Shown piece by piece: positions 1,867 through 50,826 of a stretch of DNA of 64,000 bases (its first letter is position 1; each line of letters begins with the position of its first letter). Location of the stretch: assembly GCF_004358165.1 (NCBI RefSeq), contig NZ_SMTG01000004.1, positions 1-64,000 of the forward strand. The letters are read 5' to 3'. The notes beneath the pieces were generated by a model, which worked only from the letters and a program-made list of their open reading frames with translations, was not told the DNA's origin and ran no database searches. The position numbers and the translations under genes are program-made. Source of the DNA: Luteimonas terrae. Its GTDB lineage: Bacteria; Pseudomonadota; Gammaproteobacteria; Xanthomonadales; Xanthomonadaceae.

Positions 1867-3087
1867 ATGAGCTTCCGTATCTCGCTGAGCGGCATGAACA
1901 CCGCTTCGTCCGACCTGAGCGTCACCTCGCACAACATCGCCAACGCCAACACCGTCGGCTTCAAGCAGAGCCGCGCCGAGTTCGGCGACGTGTTCGCGGT
2001 CTCGCCCTACGGCCTGGCCAAGAACGCCGTGGGTGCCGGTTCGCGCCTGCAGCGCGTGGCCCAGCAGTTCAACCAGGGCAACATCGACTTCACCGGCCAG
2101 GCGCTGGACATGGGCGTGTCGGGCCAGGGCTTCTTCACCCTGTCCAACAACGGCCAGACGGTCTATTCGCGCGCCGGCAACTTCACCACGGACAACAACG
2201 GTTTCGTGGTGAACCCGTCGGGCCAGCGCCTGCAGGTCTATTCGCCGACCGGCGACGGCCGCAGCTTCAACACCGGCAAGCTCGGCGATCTGCAGCTCGC
2301 CACCGGCGACGCGCCGCCCAAGGTCAGCACCAAGGTCAACGTGGGCGTGACCCTGCCGGGCAACGGCGCACCGCCGACCAACACCCCGTTCGACGCGACC
2401 GATCCGACCACCTACACTCACACCACCTCGCTGACGGTGTTCGACTCGCTGGGCGCGTCGCACTCCCAGGCGCTGTACTTCACCAAGACCGGCAACGCCA
2501 ACGAGTGGACCGTGCAGACCCAGATCGACGGCGTCGACGTGGGCGGCCCGCAGACCCTGCAGTACTCCGACACCGGCGCACTGATCTCGCCGGCCGGCGG
2601 CAACATCGCCCTGCCCGCGCACACCCCGCCGGGCGGCGCCGGCCCGATGACGCTGTCGCTGGAACTGGGCAACTCGGTGCAGTACGGCCAGAAGTTCGCC
2701 GTGTCCGAGCTGACCCAGGACGGCTTCACCACCGGCAGCCTGTCGGGCATCTCGGTCTCGGCCGAGGGCGTGGTCCAGGCCAGCTACAGCAACGGTGTCA
2801 CCAAGCCGCTGGGCCAGGTCGCGCTGACCATGTTCGCCAACCCGCAGGGCCTGCAGCAGGCCGGCGACAACGCGTTCTCCGAGACCTTCGAATCCGGCCA
2901 GCCCCTGCGCGGCGCCGCCGGCACCTCGCAGTTCGGCCTGGTCCAGGGCGGCGCGCTGGAAGCCTCCAACGTCGACCTGACCGAACAGCTGGTCAGCATG
3001 ATCACGGCCCAGCGCAACTTCCAGGCGAACGCGCAGATGATCCAGACGCAGGACCAGATCACGCAGACGGTGATCAATCTGCGTTGA
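1867..3087 (+). CDS. flgE: Flagellar hook protein FlgE
   Basis: Main hook subunit, 406 residues, a normal length. The N-terminal rod/hook motif (SHNIANANTVGFKQSRAEF, residues about 23-41) and the C-terminal ASNVDLTEQLVSMITAQRNF helix form the D0 coiled coil; the middle is the variable hook domain. A GGAG site lies eight bases before the ATG. It is the last gene of the flgBCDE unit. The next rod gene, flgF, is 862 bases away behind a foreign minus-strand gene and repeats. Confidence 0.97.
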   Translation: MSFRISLSGMNTASSDLSVTSHNIANANTVGFKQSRAEFGDVFAVSPYGLAKNAVGAGSRLQRVAQQFNQGNIDFTGQALDMGVSGQGFFTLSNNGQTVYSRAGNFTTDNNGFVVNPSGQRLQVYSPTGDGRSFNTGKLGDLQLATGDAPPKVSTKVNVGVTLPGNGAPPTNTPFDATDPTTYTHTTSLTVFDSLGASHSQALYFTKTGNANEWTVQTQIDGVDVGGPQTLQYSDTGALISPAGGNIALPAHTPPGGAGPMTLSLELGNSVQYGQKFAVSELTQDGFTTGSLSGISVSAEGVVQASYSNGVTKPLGQVALTMFANPQGLQQAGDNAFSETFESGQPLRGAAGTSQFGLVQGGALEASNVDLTEQLVSMITAQRNFQANAQMIQTQDQITQTVINLR

Positions 3088-3143: not shown

Positions 3144-3297
3144 CCCCTTCCCCCGCCCGCGGGGGAAGGCTGGGATGGGGGCAAAGTTTGGGGTCGCGAA
3201 AGCGAAGGGCATGCGCAACACGCCATGCGCTCGCATCATTTTTTCGCCTTCCGATGGTTTGCCCCCACCCAACCCTCCCCCGCGCGCGGGGGAGGGC
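3144..3297. repeat. Palindromic repeat pair B(+)/A(-) between flgE and the DUF559 gene
   Basis: Copy B(+) at 3144-3182 has CCCCTTCCCCCGC/GCGGGGGAAGG and the CTGGGATGGGGGC tail. Copy A(-) at 3261-3297 has GCCCCCACCCAACCC and the CCTCCCCCGC/GCGGGGGAGG core. Their tails face each other across about 78 bases with no recognisable gene. The A copy ends one base before the stop codon of the DUF559 gene, so it may also act as a bidirectional terminator between flgE and that gene. Confidence 0.85.
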
Positions 3298-3298
3298 T

Positions 3299-3670
3299 TC
3301 ATTCGTCGCGCGATCGTTCTATATGCGCGATCCGGCTTTCGAGCCATCCATCGATCACGCTGCAGACGCCCTCCGGGTTCTGCAGGACATCGTGGTTCCA
3401 GAAACGCAGCACGTGGAATCCGCGGCGACGCAGGCACGCATCCCGACTCGCATCGGCACGCGAGCCGTTGTGCTGCCCACCGTCCACTTCGATCACCAGC
3501 GCCGGTTCCAGGCACGCGAAGTCGGCGATGAACGGGCCGACCGGATGCTGACGTCGGAAGCGGGCGCCGCATCGCTGGCGATCGCGCAGATGACGCCATA
3601 GCGCGATCTCGGCCGGTGTCATCGCGTGGCGGAGACGTCGAGCAAGATTCTGGCGTTGTCCAGTGCGCAT
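3299..3670 (-). CDS. DUF559 (Vsr-like) endonuclease-domain protein
   Basis: A 123-residue stand-alone DUF559 protein with the PD-(D/E)XK nuclease fold. The recognisable features are the MTPAEIALWRHLR helix, the RRQHPVGPFIADFACLE strand with the catalytic-type Asp, and the ALVIEVDGGQH strand with the E-x-D and His. RRRGFHVLRFWNHDVL follows near the C-terminus. The family is widespread but its role is not established; links to DNA repair or mobile DNA are inferred from the fold. It is oriented against the flagellar genes, sits between flgE and flgF and is bracketed by A/B repeat pairs on both sides. Its base composition is like its neighbours. Confidence 0.88.
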   Translation of the reverse strand: MRTGQRQNLARRLRHAMTPAEIALWRHLRDRQRCGARFRRQHPVGPFIADFACLEPALVIEVDGGQHNGSRADASRDACLRRRGFHVLRFWNHDVLQNPEGVCSVIDGWLESRIAHIERSRDE

Positions 3671-3756
3671 CTGGATTCCCGACGGATGCCGGGCTGAAGC
3701 TCGATCAAGAGGCCGAACTGCGCCAGCGGATCATTGATCGCCCGAGCGTGGGGTTT

Positions 3757-3863
3757 GCCCCCACCCAACCCTCCCCCGCCCGCGAGGGAGGGCTTTTGCG
3801 GTCACGCGCCGGCGCGGAGACCTGCCCCTTCCCCCGCCTGCGGGGGAAGGCTGGGATGGGGGC
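3757..3863. repeat. Palindromic repeat pair A(-)/B(+) between the DUF559 gene and flgF
   Basis: Copy A(-) at 3757-3793 and copy B(+) at 3825-3863 point their tails outward, only 31 bases apart. The pair lies just upstream of the DUF559 start (3670), so with 3144-3297 that gene is enclosed on both sides. The remaining bases to flgF hold only the flgF promoter. Confidence 0.85.
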
Positions 3864-3922
3864 AAGGGGTCAGGTCGAAGCATTCGGCAACGCAGGCGGG
3901 AAAGCACGCGAAAAGCCCACCG

Positions 3923-3949: not shown

Positions 3950-4696
3950 ATGGACAAGGCCCTCTACATCGCGATGACCGGCGCCAGCGCCACGCTGCGC
4001 GCCCAGGCGAACGTCGCCCACAACCTCGCCAACGTCGACACCGTCGGCTTCCGCGCGACCCTCAGTGCCACGACTGCGATGCCGGTCACGGGCGACGGTT
4101 TGTCGTCGCGTGTGGCCACGGCCGAACGGGTGGTCGGCGTGAGCAACGCCACCGGCGCGCTGAGCACCACCGGCAACGTGCTGGACGTGGCGCTCAATGC
4201 CGACCGCTGGTTCGCGGTGCAGGATCCCCAAGGCGGCACCGCCTACACCCGCGCGGGCGACCTGCGGGTCAGCCAGAACGGACTGCTGACCACCGGCAGC
4301 GGGCTGCAGCTGCTCGACGCCGGCGGCGCGCCGATGGCGATTCCGCCCAACGACGGCCTGGAGATCGGCGCCGATGGCACCGTGTCGGTGATTCCGCAGG
4401 GCTCGCCGCGTTCGTCGATGACCCAGATCGGCCGCCTGCAGGTGGTCGAGACCACGACGGCCGACCTCACCCGCGGCGAGGACAGCCTGCTGCGCGCGAA
4501 CCCCGCCCGCCCGGCACCGCTGCCCGCAGCCGGCGCGGTGCTGCAGACCGGCGTACTGGAAAGCAGCAACGTCGATGCGACCGGTGCGCTGGTCTCGATG
4601 ATCGAACTCTCGCGCCAGTTCGAGATGCAGGTACGCGTCTTGCAGGCCGGAGACGAGTCCGCGCGCTCGGCCAATTCGCTGCTGTCCTCGCGCTGA
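3950..4696 (+). CDS. flgF: Flagellar basal-body rod protein FlgF
   Basis: Proximal rod subunit, 248 residues. It opens with MDKALYIAMTGAS and AHNLANVDTVGF, which match the start of FlgF in other polar-flagellated gammaproteobacteria and so fix the ATG at 3950. The C-terminus has the ESSNVDATGALVSMIELSRQFE helix. No Shine-Dalgarno sequence precedes the start, in keeping with the promoter lying immediately upstream. An in-frame 72-codon extension further upstream runs through the repeats and is rejected. Confidence 0.96.
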   Translation: MDKALYIAMTGASATLRAQANVAHNLANVDTVGFRATLSATTAMPVTGDGLSSRVATAERVVGVSNATGALSTTGNVLDVALNADRWFAVQDPQGGTAYTRAGDLRVSQNGLLTTGSGLQLLDAGGAPMAIPPNDGLEIGADGTVSVIPQGSPRSSMTQIGRLQVVETTTADLTRGEDSLLRANPARPAPLPAAGAVLQTGVLESSNVDATGALVSMIELSRQFEMQVRVLQAGDESARSANSLLSSR

Positions 4697-17012: not shown

Positions 17013-17186
17013 CCCTCCCCCGCTCGCGGGGGAGGGTTGGGTGGGGGCGAACGGCCCGATCGCGTTGACGTCAGGCAGCAGACGAAGGCTGGCATGCCTC
17101 CGACACAGGCTGCCGCACGAGCCGTGCGCCTCGTCCAGCTGATCGTTTGCCCCCATCCCAGCCTTCCCCCGCATGCGGGGGAAGGC
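17013..17186. repeat. Palindromic repeat pair A(+)/B(-) upstream of rpoN
   Basis: Copy A(+) at 17013-17048 (CCCTCCCCCGC/GCGGGGGAGGG with TTGGGTGGGGGC) and copy B(-) at 17149-17186 (GCCCCCATCCCAGCC with CTTCCCCCGC/GCGGGGGAAGG) face each other with 100 bases between. They occupy the left part of the 735-base gap between the response regulator and rpoN; the right part holds promoter elements. No gene was seen in the gap. Confidence 0.85.
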
Positions 17187-27546: not shown

Positions 27547-27651
27547 GCCCCCACCCAACCCTCCCCCGCCTCGCGGGGGAGGGCTCGCGTTTCGCGCGCT
27601 CGCAGCGTGCCGCCCCTTCCCCCGCTTGCGGGGGAAGGTCGGGATGGGGGC
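27547..27651. repeat. Palindromic repeat pair A(-)/B(+) between fliK and fliL
   Basis: Copy A(-) at 27547-27584 and copy B(+) at 27613-27651 have tails pointing outward, with 28 bases between them. The arrangement is the same as at 3757-3863. The 293-base fliK-fliL gap otherwise holds only the fliL promoter. The pair lies between two sigma-54 transcription units and may end the upstream one. Confidence 0.85.
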
Positions 27652-28300: not shown

Positions 28301-29316
28301 TGAGCAACGAGCTGCTCTCCCAGGACGAGATCGACGCGCTGCTGCACGGCGTCGACAGCGGCGCGGTGGACACCGATCCGCCGGCCGCGCCCGGTGAAGT
28401 GCGGCCCTACGATTTCGCGAAGCAGGGCCGCGTCGTGCGCGGCCGCCTTCCGGGCCTGGACGCGATCAACGAACGCTTCGCGCTGGCCTTCAAGGTCGGC
28501 CTGTTCAACCTGCTGCGGCGCTCGTGCGAACTGACGATCCGCGGCGTGGACGTGGTGCGTTTCGACGAGTACATGCACTCGATGCCGCAGCCGGCCAATC
28601 TCAACGTCATCCAGGCCCGGCCGCTGCGCGGCAACGCGCTGGTGGTGTTCGAACCGCGGCTGGTGTTCACCGTGGTCGACAACTTCTTCGGCGGTGGCGG
28701 GCGGTTCCCGGCCAAGGTCGCCGAGCGCGAGTTCACCCCGACCGAGCAGCGCATCGTGCAGCTGATGCTGCGCCAGGTGTTCACCGACATGGCCACCGCG
28801 TGGCTGCCGGTGCAGGCGCTGGAGTTCGCGCACACCCAGACCGAGAGCAACCCGCTGCAGGTCGAACTGATCGACCCGCGCGACCACATCGTCATCAGCC
28901 GCTTCAGCATCGCGCTCGACGGCGGCGGTGGCGATCTGCACATCGCCCTGCCCTACAAGATGCTCGAGCCGTTGCGCGACCACCTCGAGGCCACCGGCCC
29001 GCGCCGCCAGCGCAGCGACTCCGACGAGACCTGGGCGCGCCATCTGCGTGCCGGCGTCGAGGCCGCGGCGCTGGAGTGCAGCGTCTCGCTGGCGCATCGC
29101 CAGATCAGCCTGCGCGAACTGGCGCGCCTGAAAGTCGGCGACGTGATCCCGATCGAGCTGGCACGCCCCGTGCACATGAGCGTCGAGTCGACGCCGATGT
29201 TCGAAGGCGAGTTCGGCACCCACAACGGCTTCAACGCATTGAAGGTCACCCAGGTGAATTTCCCCCAGGTGGCCCCGTCCAACGATTCCCACGAGTTCCA
29301 GGCCGCGACCCCATGA
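28300..29316 (+). CDS. fliM: Flagellar motor switch protein FliM
   Basis: C-ring protein that receives the CheY-P signal, 338 residues. The CheY-docking motif LSQDEIDALL lies at residues 6-15. The CheC-like middle domain and a C-terminal SpoA domain follow (LGARLKV-type elements such as LARLKVGDVIPIELARPVHM). Because the docking motif is intact, this motor should still respond to a CheY even though no che gene is in the window. It overlaps fliL by one base and fliN by four. Confidence 0.96.
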   Translation: MSNELLSQDEIDALLHGVDSGAVDTDPPAAPGEVRPYDFAKQGRVVRGRLPGLDAINERFALAFKVGLFNLLRRSCELTIRGVDVVRFDEYMHSMPQPANLNVIQARPLRGNALVVFEPRLVFTVVDNFFGGGGRFPAKVAEREFTPTEQRIVQLMLRQVFTDMATAWLPVQALEFAHTQTESNPLQVELIDPRDHIVISRFSIALDGGGGDLHIALPYKMLEPLRDHLEATGPRRQRSDSDETWARHLRAGVEAAALECSVSLAHRQISLRELARLKVGDVIPIELARPVHMSVESTPMFEGEFGTHNGFNALKVTQVNFPQVAPSNDSHEFQAATP

Positions 29317-39832: not shown

Positions 39833-40040
39833 GCCCTCCCCCGCGTGCGCCCTGAGTGGCGGCGTGTCTCAGCGGGCGACCAGCTGAAGCCCTCCCCCGC
39901 ATAGCGGGAGAGCGTTGGGTGGGGGCAGCCCTTTCGCCGCGGACCCGCGTCACCGGACGCGAGCATCGGCCGGCCATTCCGTCCTTCCTTCGACTCACCT
40001 CTTCGCCCACCCCGACCTTCCCCCGCACGCGGGGGAAGGC
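39833..40040. repeat. Palindromic repeats between fliA and motC
   Basis: A partial A copy (39833-39851), a full but slightly degenerate A(+) copy (39890-39926) and a B(-) copy (40005-40040). The A(+)/B(-) pair has tails facing inward. The 429-base gap contains no gene. In Pseudomonas-type clusters this is the position of cheY, cheZ, cheA and cheB. Confidence 0.8.
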
Positions 40041-50672: not shown

Positions 50673-50826
50673 CCCTCCCCTGCAATGCGGGGGAGGGTTG
50701 GGAGGGGGCGAACGATCAGATCGATGCGAAAGACGGCGACCCGCATTTGTATGCCGCTTGGTCCGGAAGTCGCTTGCTCTGACGGTTTGCCCCCACCCAA
50801 CCCTTCCCCGTTCTACGAGGAAGGGC
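50673..50826. repeat. Palindromic repeat pair between convergent sulP-type and DUF1176 genes
   Basis: A(+) copy at 50673-50709 and a degenerate reverse copy at 50789-50826, tails facing inward. It fills most of the 189-base gap between two convergent stop codons and may serve as a bidirectional terminator. Confidence 0.8.

Follow-up and report, generated by a model that had tools for sequence, protein, structure and literature searches.

Between flgE and flgF, two flagellar genes that normally adjoin, Luteimonas terrae carries a small reversed gene of the DUF559 family, boxed in by short palindromes. What ties this putative nuclease to the repeats around it, and is the tie of the kind known for RAYT transposases and REP palindromes? 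Hereafter, the window denotes the whole stretch of 64,000 nucleotides that was analysed, bases 1-64000 of one contig of a 3.57-Mb genome in 15 contigs.

The window locus and its nuclease

The DUF559 gene occupies positions 3299-3670 of the minus strand, between flgE (1867-3087, plus strand) and the start codon of flgF (ATG at 3950). It encodes 123 residues and matches PF04480 with E=2.5e-35. The coordinates and this match confirm the reversed placement proposed in the original prediction, which had also described a B(+)/A(-) pair of palindromes on the 3' side of the gene and an A(-)/B(+) pair on its 5' side. All four hairpins were found as described. Each one comprises a C-rich arm, a loop and a complementary G-rich arm, followed on one side only by a G-rich tract, hereafter named the head. 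Palindrome A reads CCCTCCCCCGC-N-GCGGGGGAGGG, then the head TTGGGTGGGGGC; palindrome B reads CCTTCCCCCGC-N-GCGGGGGAAGG, then the head CTGGGATGGGGGC. On the 3' side, a type B palindrome with its head (3146-3182, plus strand; hairpin 3146-3169) points to the gene, and a type A palindrome with its head (3258-3296, minus strand; hairpin 3273-3296) lies one base from the gene end and points outward. Together they form a B> ~104 bp <A gene-less composite unit (3146-3296). On the 5' side, the head of a type A palindrome (3755-3792, minus strand; hairpin 3769-3792) is directed to the gene and that of a type B palindrome (3827-3865, plus strand; hairpin 3827-3850) outward. Although hairpins are predicted for the window palindromes, they are no more stable than shuffled controls built from the same C/G runs (z -0.75 to -1.65), and stability alone does not separate A/B palindromes from shuffled sequences.

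The protein is a predicted EDxHD/Vsr-type endonuclease in which E21, D50, D63, H67 and D73 are conserved. In an alignment of 50 proteins, the invariant residues include E21, D50, E61, D63, G64, Q66, H67 and D73, so that the E, D, H and D active-site residues appear to be present, the motif being assigned by spacing. According to part of a study of Caulobacter VsrA, residues E73-D102-D115-H119 match the Vsr active site (PMC12907096); the spacing of E21-D50-D63-H67 is the same in a comparison made here. The structure model of the window protein has a mean pLDDT of 88.7. Its closest solved fold is 3hrl, itself a DUF559 protein (Z 15.9), followed by the homing endonuclease I-Bth0305I (PDB 3r3p; Z 11.3, rmsd 2.4 over 92 residues), with which a weak sequence match is also found (E=0.0063). 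Vsr (1cw0) is placed at Z 8.8 among others of similar score, Holliday-junction resolvases at Z ~7.5, and TnsA of Tn7 further off at Z 5.9. As modelled, the protein therefore has a Vsr-like fold; in an excerpt of earlier work, YcjD had already detected Vsr in 2005 (PMC1189080). No transposase fold (DDE, HUH, serine or tyrosine) was found, and only DUF559 passes the Pfam cut-off in the window protein. PADLOC models gave weak, partial matches (best E 0.004 among three proteins), too weak to favour a role as a defence gene. The closest named relative is a DUF559 protein of Luteimonas sp. 9C (86% identity). Finally, the DUF559 gene is under purifying selection, with a median dN/dS of 0.12 over 63 pairs from 13 orthologues at one locus, L052, after 3 of 16 orthologues and 15 of 78 pairs had been dropped.

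The original prediction that A/B palindromes occur elsewhere in the window without the gene was borne out at 17013/17161, 27559/27615, 39892/40016, 50673/50801 and other places. Two of these are A> <B gene-less head-to-head units (hairpins within 17013-17186 and 39892-40039), a third is a gene-less head-to-head unit (50673-50825), and the fourth is a <A B> tail-to-tail pair (27559-27638). We extended the count to a 464-kb sample of the genome, which combines the window with twenty stretches of 20 kb, all from one other contig. Of its 30 oriented palindromes, 15 belong to type A and 13 to type B. Ten neighbour pairs, the composite unit beside the gene included, are head-to-head with 101-125 bp between hairpins, and three are tail-to-tail (32-79 bp); under a simple string rule for typing, 8 of the 10 and all 3 pair an A with a B. 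None of the palindrome pairs in the 464 kb runs in the same direction, and the spacers of the ten head-to-head units align visibly only at their ends. Given the narrow spacing, two palindromes without the gene make up a unit of almost constant length, which resembles the pairs of Escherichia coli. Over the whole genome, a count of CCCTCYCC-N-GGRGAGGG gives 95 palindromes, and PF01797, the RAYT family, has no match. RAYT was thus rejected as mobiliser, all the more since RAYT loci of the genus carry such a palindrome in 1 of 29 cases and on both sides in 0 of 29 (one short locus of 30 having been dropped).

Three DUF559 genes are found in this genome, and by eye all have palindromes on both sides. 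In the 464-kb sample, a hairpin lies within 200 bp of 4.9% of 264 other genes and flanks none of them on both sides. At one of the three genes (L003:1292-1400), an insert of ~65-70 bp separates the G-arm of the left palindrome, of type A, from its head, and this copy fails the detector filter. Two of the three proteins are related (73% identical in the aligned part) and both have A-type ends. The remaining gene (L001) has a different end type, CCCCTCTCCC/GGGAGAGGGG. This type accounts for 1 of the 30 sampled dispersed palindromes, and A or B for 28.

Palindromes at DUF559 genes across genomes

The layout might have been peculiar to the flagellar cluster or to Xanthomonadaceae. It is not: DUF559 genes were found beside palindromes at loci of several phyla. 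According to how similar the genes and their neighbourhoods are, 207 loci were clustered into 149 groups, treated as independent. We used this clustered count since the sets overlap (25 clusters of phylum loci with 20-kb windows, 10 of named with unnamed loci). A palindrome lies within 200 bp of DUF559 at 144 of the 149 loci and on both sides at 96, as compared to 55 and 2 of 463 control genes. The enrichment of palindromes beside DUF559 genes proposed for testing is therefore clear. The detector had been shaped on the window and the genus loci ahead of the counts, and the controls were run with the same detector; gene edges are those of the domain or BLAST match and not start or stop codons. 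At 53 of the 149 loci, one or both sides are without a detected palindrome, and five loci are without any (L054, L069, L159, L244 and, near a contig end, L241). As the sampled loci are best-scoring matches only, distant DUF559 proteins are under-represented.

The individual samples agree with this count. The first took the best DUF559 match per genome in 40 genomes outside the family of the window, with 20 kb around each, four places near a contig start being dropped (G353, G288, G343, G495). A palindrome was found within 200 bp of the domain in 38 of 40 cases and on both sides in 16. The 463 control genes come from these same stretches. Among 6651 random segments, 5.2% have a palindrome nearby and 0 are flanked on both sides. 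Of 299 intergenic gaps of at least 60 bp, 8.7% contain a palindrome. The second sample, drawn from genus, family and phylum and scored at 250 bp, retained 87 of 90 loci (L010, L023 and L032 lie at contig ends): 86 have a palindrome and 53 have both, the both-sided share being 17/29 for the genus, 26/29 for the family and 10/29 for the phylum. The third, 80 named loci from another collection, gave 78 with any and 55 with both, against 4.3% and 0 of 3064 control segments. By record title, its inward pairs include loci of Chloroflexi, Nitrospirae, Chlamydiae and Gastranaerophilales, and an Omnitrophota locus has palindromes on both sides. The DUF559-palindrome pairing is general and spans several phyla.

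The heads are mostly directed to the gene. Over the clustered loci, 171 point inward, 29 outward and 40 are undecided; where both sides could be decided (72 loci), 58 are inward on both, 4 outward on both and 10 mixed. At those 58 loci, the inward matched ends correspond to the terminal inverted repeats of insertion sequences and MITEs. Elements with an inward pair (n=67; L001-L090 and L201-L280) have a median length of 436 bp (range 398-647). Four enterobacterial loci (L067, L070, L075, L081) have a palindrome on one side only. In a set of five plasmid loci from Deinococcus and cyanobacteria, two Deinococcus loci sharing the same gene neighbourhood (L196, L200) have heads outward on both sides, and L198 has an inward pair. 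The Pseudanabaena locus (L197) has heads outward, the left one by eye, with AT-richer repeats (AAATCCCCC...GGGGGATTTAGGGGG). No palindrome was called by the detector at L195, and AT-richer cyanobacterial repeats, as in L195 and L197, are underrated by it.

Three further observations concern the DUF559 matches themselves. Many frames (for instance L052, L061 and L051) do not stop before the downstream palindrome but continue into it, so that the encoded proteins end in tails such as LTPTPLPVGEG or PSPPNPPLEGEG. In two plasmid-labelled Klebsiella pneumoniae loci (L162, L163), the interval from cysP to a Dyp-type peroxidase gene contains a DUF559 match that is broken into two pieces and carries no annotation; a box C-like palindrome borders it on just one side. 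Two tandem matches on the same strand, ~630 bp apart, are found at G135:C73:39262-40201 and are possibly adjacent units.

We then compared the ends with each other and with the proteins. The two ends of one element resemble each other more than ends of different elements (mean similarity 0.81 within versus 0.59 between; permutation p 2e-4), and the own partner is the top-ranked end in 11 of 31 elements; these 31 are the loci, out of 87, with an inward pair under a strict rule. Repeat similarity also rises with DUF559 identity (rho 0.33 over 147 loci, Mantel p 0.002). Removal of pairs that share flanking DNA (396 of 10,731) left rho at 0.29 (p 0.002), and within one genus, over 294 pairs, rho reached 0.61 (p 5e-4). 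Hence DUF559 genes show the trait of RAYT/REP systems, in that the gene lies between a pair of inverted repeats whose sequence changes with that of the protein, the both-sided arrangement being seen at the 96 loci counted above.

Palindrome number also follows the presence of DUF559. The first counting pattern misses the window's own type A, so a second pattern was used, in which a counted palindrome is CCCTCYCC-N-GGRGAGGG; its reversed control gives 0-1 per genome. Among 52 genomes of the genus, the 34 with a DUF559 match below 1e-20 hold a median of 38 palindromes (range 1-106), and the other 18 (14 with none and 4 with weaker matches) hold a median of 1 (0-14). The difference has p 2.4e-8, uncorrected for kinship and with a cut chosen after the matches were known. 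In the raw tally of 38 versus 14 genomes, the medians are 32 and 1 (p 1.5e-5, kinship likewise uncorrected). Five genomes with a clear DUF559 hold just 1-8 palindromes. Flank enrichment, inward matched ends, repeat-protein co-variation and co-occurrence together uphold the proposal that this nuclease is tied to its palindromes in the fashion of RAYT and REP.

Box C repeats, filled sites and empty sites

The mobile unit had been taken as undescribed, and as far as its repeats are concerned the original prediction was not supported. Parts of a paper by Holder and colleagues (PMC4666352) describe a potential intrastrand triplex motif made of a C-arm, a G-arm and a G-rich third tract, earlier named box C and first found in E. 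coli in the 1990s. According to the same excerpts, this G/C-rich triplex class occurs in more than 260 prokaryotes; E. coli K-12 has 23 copies, always intergenic, in which a second loop of TTA defines type A and one of CCG type B; and five close inverted pairs always combine an A with a B (PMC4666352). The window repeats have this layout, with C-arm, loop, G-arm and G-rich third tract on one strand. They also share the close inverted pairing of A with B, which accounts for eight of the ten head-to-head pairs and all three tail-to-tail ones in the 464-kb sample. Judged by these features, the window palindromes appear to fit the box C/intrastrand-triplex class. The excerpts of the 2015 paper report no association of triplex motifs with transposons, phages or plasmids and leave their origin open (PMC4666352).

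E. coli K-12 itself carries a DUF559 gene, ycjD (E=1.4e-49), between fabI and sapF. At a distance of 168 bp past its 3' end there is a type A box C copy (TTA) with the head outward, and a degraded palindrome overlaps the 3' end; no box C-type palindrome is found on the 5' side in K-12. Between ycjD and sapF, at the expected box C end, we also noted an inverted repeat with 17-bp arms (L121:4758-4802). At another enterobacterial locus, L070, a DUF559-adjacent palindrome (CCG second loop, type B by eye) is present on one side of the gene only. Among 5,426 E. coli genomes, 4,423 contain matches to this palindrome, at 28,365 places in all (median 6 where there is at least one), and the wider L070 stretch matches ycjD at ~74%. 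The box C repeats of E. coli thus closely resemble the palindromes that lie beside DUF559 in relatives. In Cedecea (L243), palindromes are present on both sides of DUF559, with heads outward.

Filled and empty sites were compared at several loci. At 25 of 30 genus loci, flgE and flgF are separated by a gap of 2-145 bp that contains no palindrome. The two genes thus normally adjoin, as originally stated, and empty sites carrying the same repeats, which were to count against the proposal, were not seen at these 25 short-gap loci. Three genomes have DUF559 in the interval (G000, G012 and G046, the last with a run of N), and in G012 the outer B(+) of the window is absent. One genome (G016, locus L112) has 1068 bp without palindromes and another (G014, locus L093) has 889 bp with other palindromes and without DUF559. 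At L093 and also at L284, G014 has a different palindrome-bearing insert, free of DUF559, where other species of the genus hold the DUF559 unit; both places may thus be hot spots shared by more than one repeat family. The remaining flgE-flgF gaps are short and diverged. A precise gene-plus-repeat junction, which had been hoped for between flgE and flgF, was not obtained at base resolution. Filled and empty states are likewise present at L003, where a search of 52 genomes gave 30 loci that were read, and at L049, in a set of 12 genomes, with edges that are not base-precise. Target-site duplications are unreadable, as the empty sites are too diverged at their edges.

The L052 locus gave a single exact junction. 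In 20 genomes of another genus, DUF559 sequence is present in 16 (two partial matches), and three have neither gene nor palindrome. In G634, exactly one palindrome stands between the two outer flanks and joins them. When a tree was built from the flanks, G634 grouped with filled genomes (support 0.94-0.95). Nested as it is among them, its lone palindrome most likely reflects a loss that merged two palindromes rather than an insertion. A lone palindrome between flanks was also found at L319.

Candidate explanations and known systems

With a probability of roughly 0.6, we favour the reading that DUF559 and its palindromes form a compact mobile-element-like cassette, in which DUF559 is the dedicated enzyme of the adjacent box C/triplex palindromes. 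In this cassette, a palindrome with a G-rich head would face DUF559 from each side. DUF559 would recognise the palindrome with its head, either folded or as duplex, and nick or cut there. As the host repairs the cut or replicates across it, the cassette, or else a pair of palindromes without the gene, would be copied elsewhere. Single palindromes scattered through the genome and the fixed-length A> ~104 bp <B pairs would be the non-autonomous offspring, and over time the gene may be lost or fixed while the palindromes stay, as is thought for RAYT and REP. Recognition, cutting and enzyme-caused dispersal are steps that we infer. The presence of gene-less A/B units of fixed length and the absence of RAYT in the same genome support the cassette; the two-sidedness of 10/29 in the phylum sample, the 29 outward heads and the bare 5' side of ycjD stand against it, as do the 53 loci with an empty side, the five palindrome-poor genomes with a clear DUF559, the reading of G634 as a loss and the mismatch-repair role proposed for a Caulobacter DUF559 protein. 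Our results suggest that DUF559 is the missing partner that spreads box C-type repeats. We give even odds to a broader statement, namely that DUF559 elements are a class of mobile DNA found in many bacterial phyla, in which a Vsr/EDxHD-type nuclease of ~120 residues would recognise triplex-forming palindromes at its ends and, helped by repair or replication in the host, copy itself and gene-less palindromes, that they are the source of box C/intrastrand-triplex repeats, those of E. coli included, and that ycjD is a fixed relic there.

Could DUF559 instead act as a homing-type drive, cutting gene-less palindromes so that double-strand-break repair copies the gene in, in the manner of free-standing homing endonucleases, while the palindromes spread otherwise? 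The fold match to the EDxHD homing endonuclease I-Bth0305I and the lone palindromes between flanks at two loci (G634 and L319) are in line with this idea. However, G634 nests among filled genomes, so that its palindrome looks derived. The phage EDxHD enzymes described in part of PMC3943268 are long, whereas the ~120-residue protein has no extra region for DNA binding, and the higher palindrome number of genomes with DUF559 stays unexplained. We therefore consider homing unlikely. It is improbable that DUF559 is a guardian or repair enzyme, resolving structures or lesions caused by palindromes that something else makes, and retained beside them for that reason. Structure-processing nucleases of related fold (Vsr, Z 8.8; Holliday-junction resolvases, Z ~7.5), the proposal made for VsrA in excerpts on Caulobacter (PMC12907096) and the purifying selection on the gene would fit such a role, but a trans-acting repair enzyme needs no place between inverted matched repeats, and the repeat type follows the linked gene. 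Moreover, the repeat type of the L001 gene, at 1 of 30, is nearly absent from the window-genome sample.

That the palindromes abut both gene ends in many loci, and that several DUF559 frames run into the downstream one, could also point to terminators or control sites of DUF559 spread by another enzyme. This is very improbable in our view, since a four-T run within 10 nt of the hairpin, on either strand, is found at just 7 of 232 flanking palindromes, a count on which terminators were rejected. The matching of both ends in orientation and type is not expected of terminators either, and the window genome has no RAYT, the enzyme that usually moves REPs. Mere coincidence, with gene and palindromes both settling in intergenic space, would agree with the strictly intergenic position of box C copies in K-12 reported in part of PMC4666352. 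The controls leave it practically no room: palindromes on both sides were seen at 96 of 149 DUF559 loci but at none of the random segments (0 of 6651 and 0 of 3064) and at just 2 of 463 other genes, and 8.7% of 299 intergenic gaps and 1 of 29 RAYT genes have any.

Pairing with one small nuclease family provides the question of box C origin with an enzyme and a test, K-12 included. Should the nuclease drive dispersal, its chemistry would differ from that of the DDE, HUH/Y1, serine and tyrosine enzymes known from mobile elements, and two unrelated sets of enzyme and repeat would have come independently to live as RAYT and REP do. A family still named 'protein of unknown function' would then have a likely role, and caution would be required before calling every DUF559 protein a mismatch-repair enzyme. 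We know of no described mobile system to which either the DUF559 enzyme or the palindrome repeat belongs. One open-licence library, outside which most subscription papers lie, gave no report of a DUF559-palindrome link and no paper joining DUF559 with triplex or inverted repeats. Judged by title or listing, its papers that join DUF559 with REP or YcjD with E. coli do not deal with repeats, and those found there on box C or triplex motifs contain neither DUF559 nor YcjD. In the excerpted text of a 2025 REP survey, nuclease, RAYT, triplex and DUF are not mentioned.

The closest parallel is RAYT/REP, in which, according to part of PMC2817692, a single gene lies between two inverted palindromic repeats that also occur as dispersed copies. 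DUF559 units share with it the gene flanked by inverted repeats, the head-to-head pairs of set spacing and the repeat-protein co-variation. However, DUF559 is a Vsr/EDxHD-type nuclease (PF04480) and not a Y1/HUH transposase (PF01797), and the window heads, TTGGGTGGGGGC and CTGGGATGGGGGC, are a G-rich third tract and not a GTAG/GTGG-type head. REPINs and MITEs are non-autonomous elements, that is, gene-less units of fixed length with inverted ends. The gene-less units described here differ in their presumed partner, DUF559 in place of a RAYT or DDE transposase. They also differ from the GTAG and CGTC repeats described in part of PMC3733652, the latter apparently without a dedicated transposase. 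With I-Bth0305I, DUF559 would share the fold of the catalytic domain, as modelled, but compared with the enzyme described in excerpts of PMC3943268 it has no added DNA-binding region, is not intronic and is bounded by inverted palindromes. The modelled fold and the spacing of E21, D50, D63 and H67 also appear to be those of Vsr and of VsrA. The Caulobacter protein is proposed, in part of PMC12907096, as a mismatch-repair enzyme tied to a cytosine methyltransferase, whereas the constant neighbour of DUF559 here is a palindrome. Finally, the palindromes share with box C/PIT repeats the C-arm, loop, G-arm and G-rich third tract, the close inverted A-B pairs and the intergenic position. The excerpts of PMC4666352 name no enzyme for those repeats, whereas at the DUF559 loci such repeats mark the two ends of a unit built around a nuclease gene.
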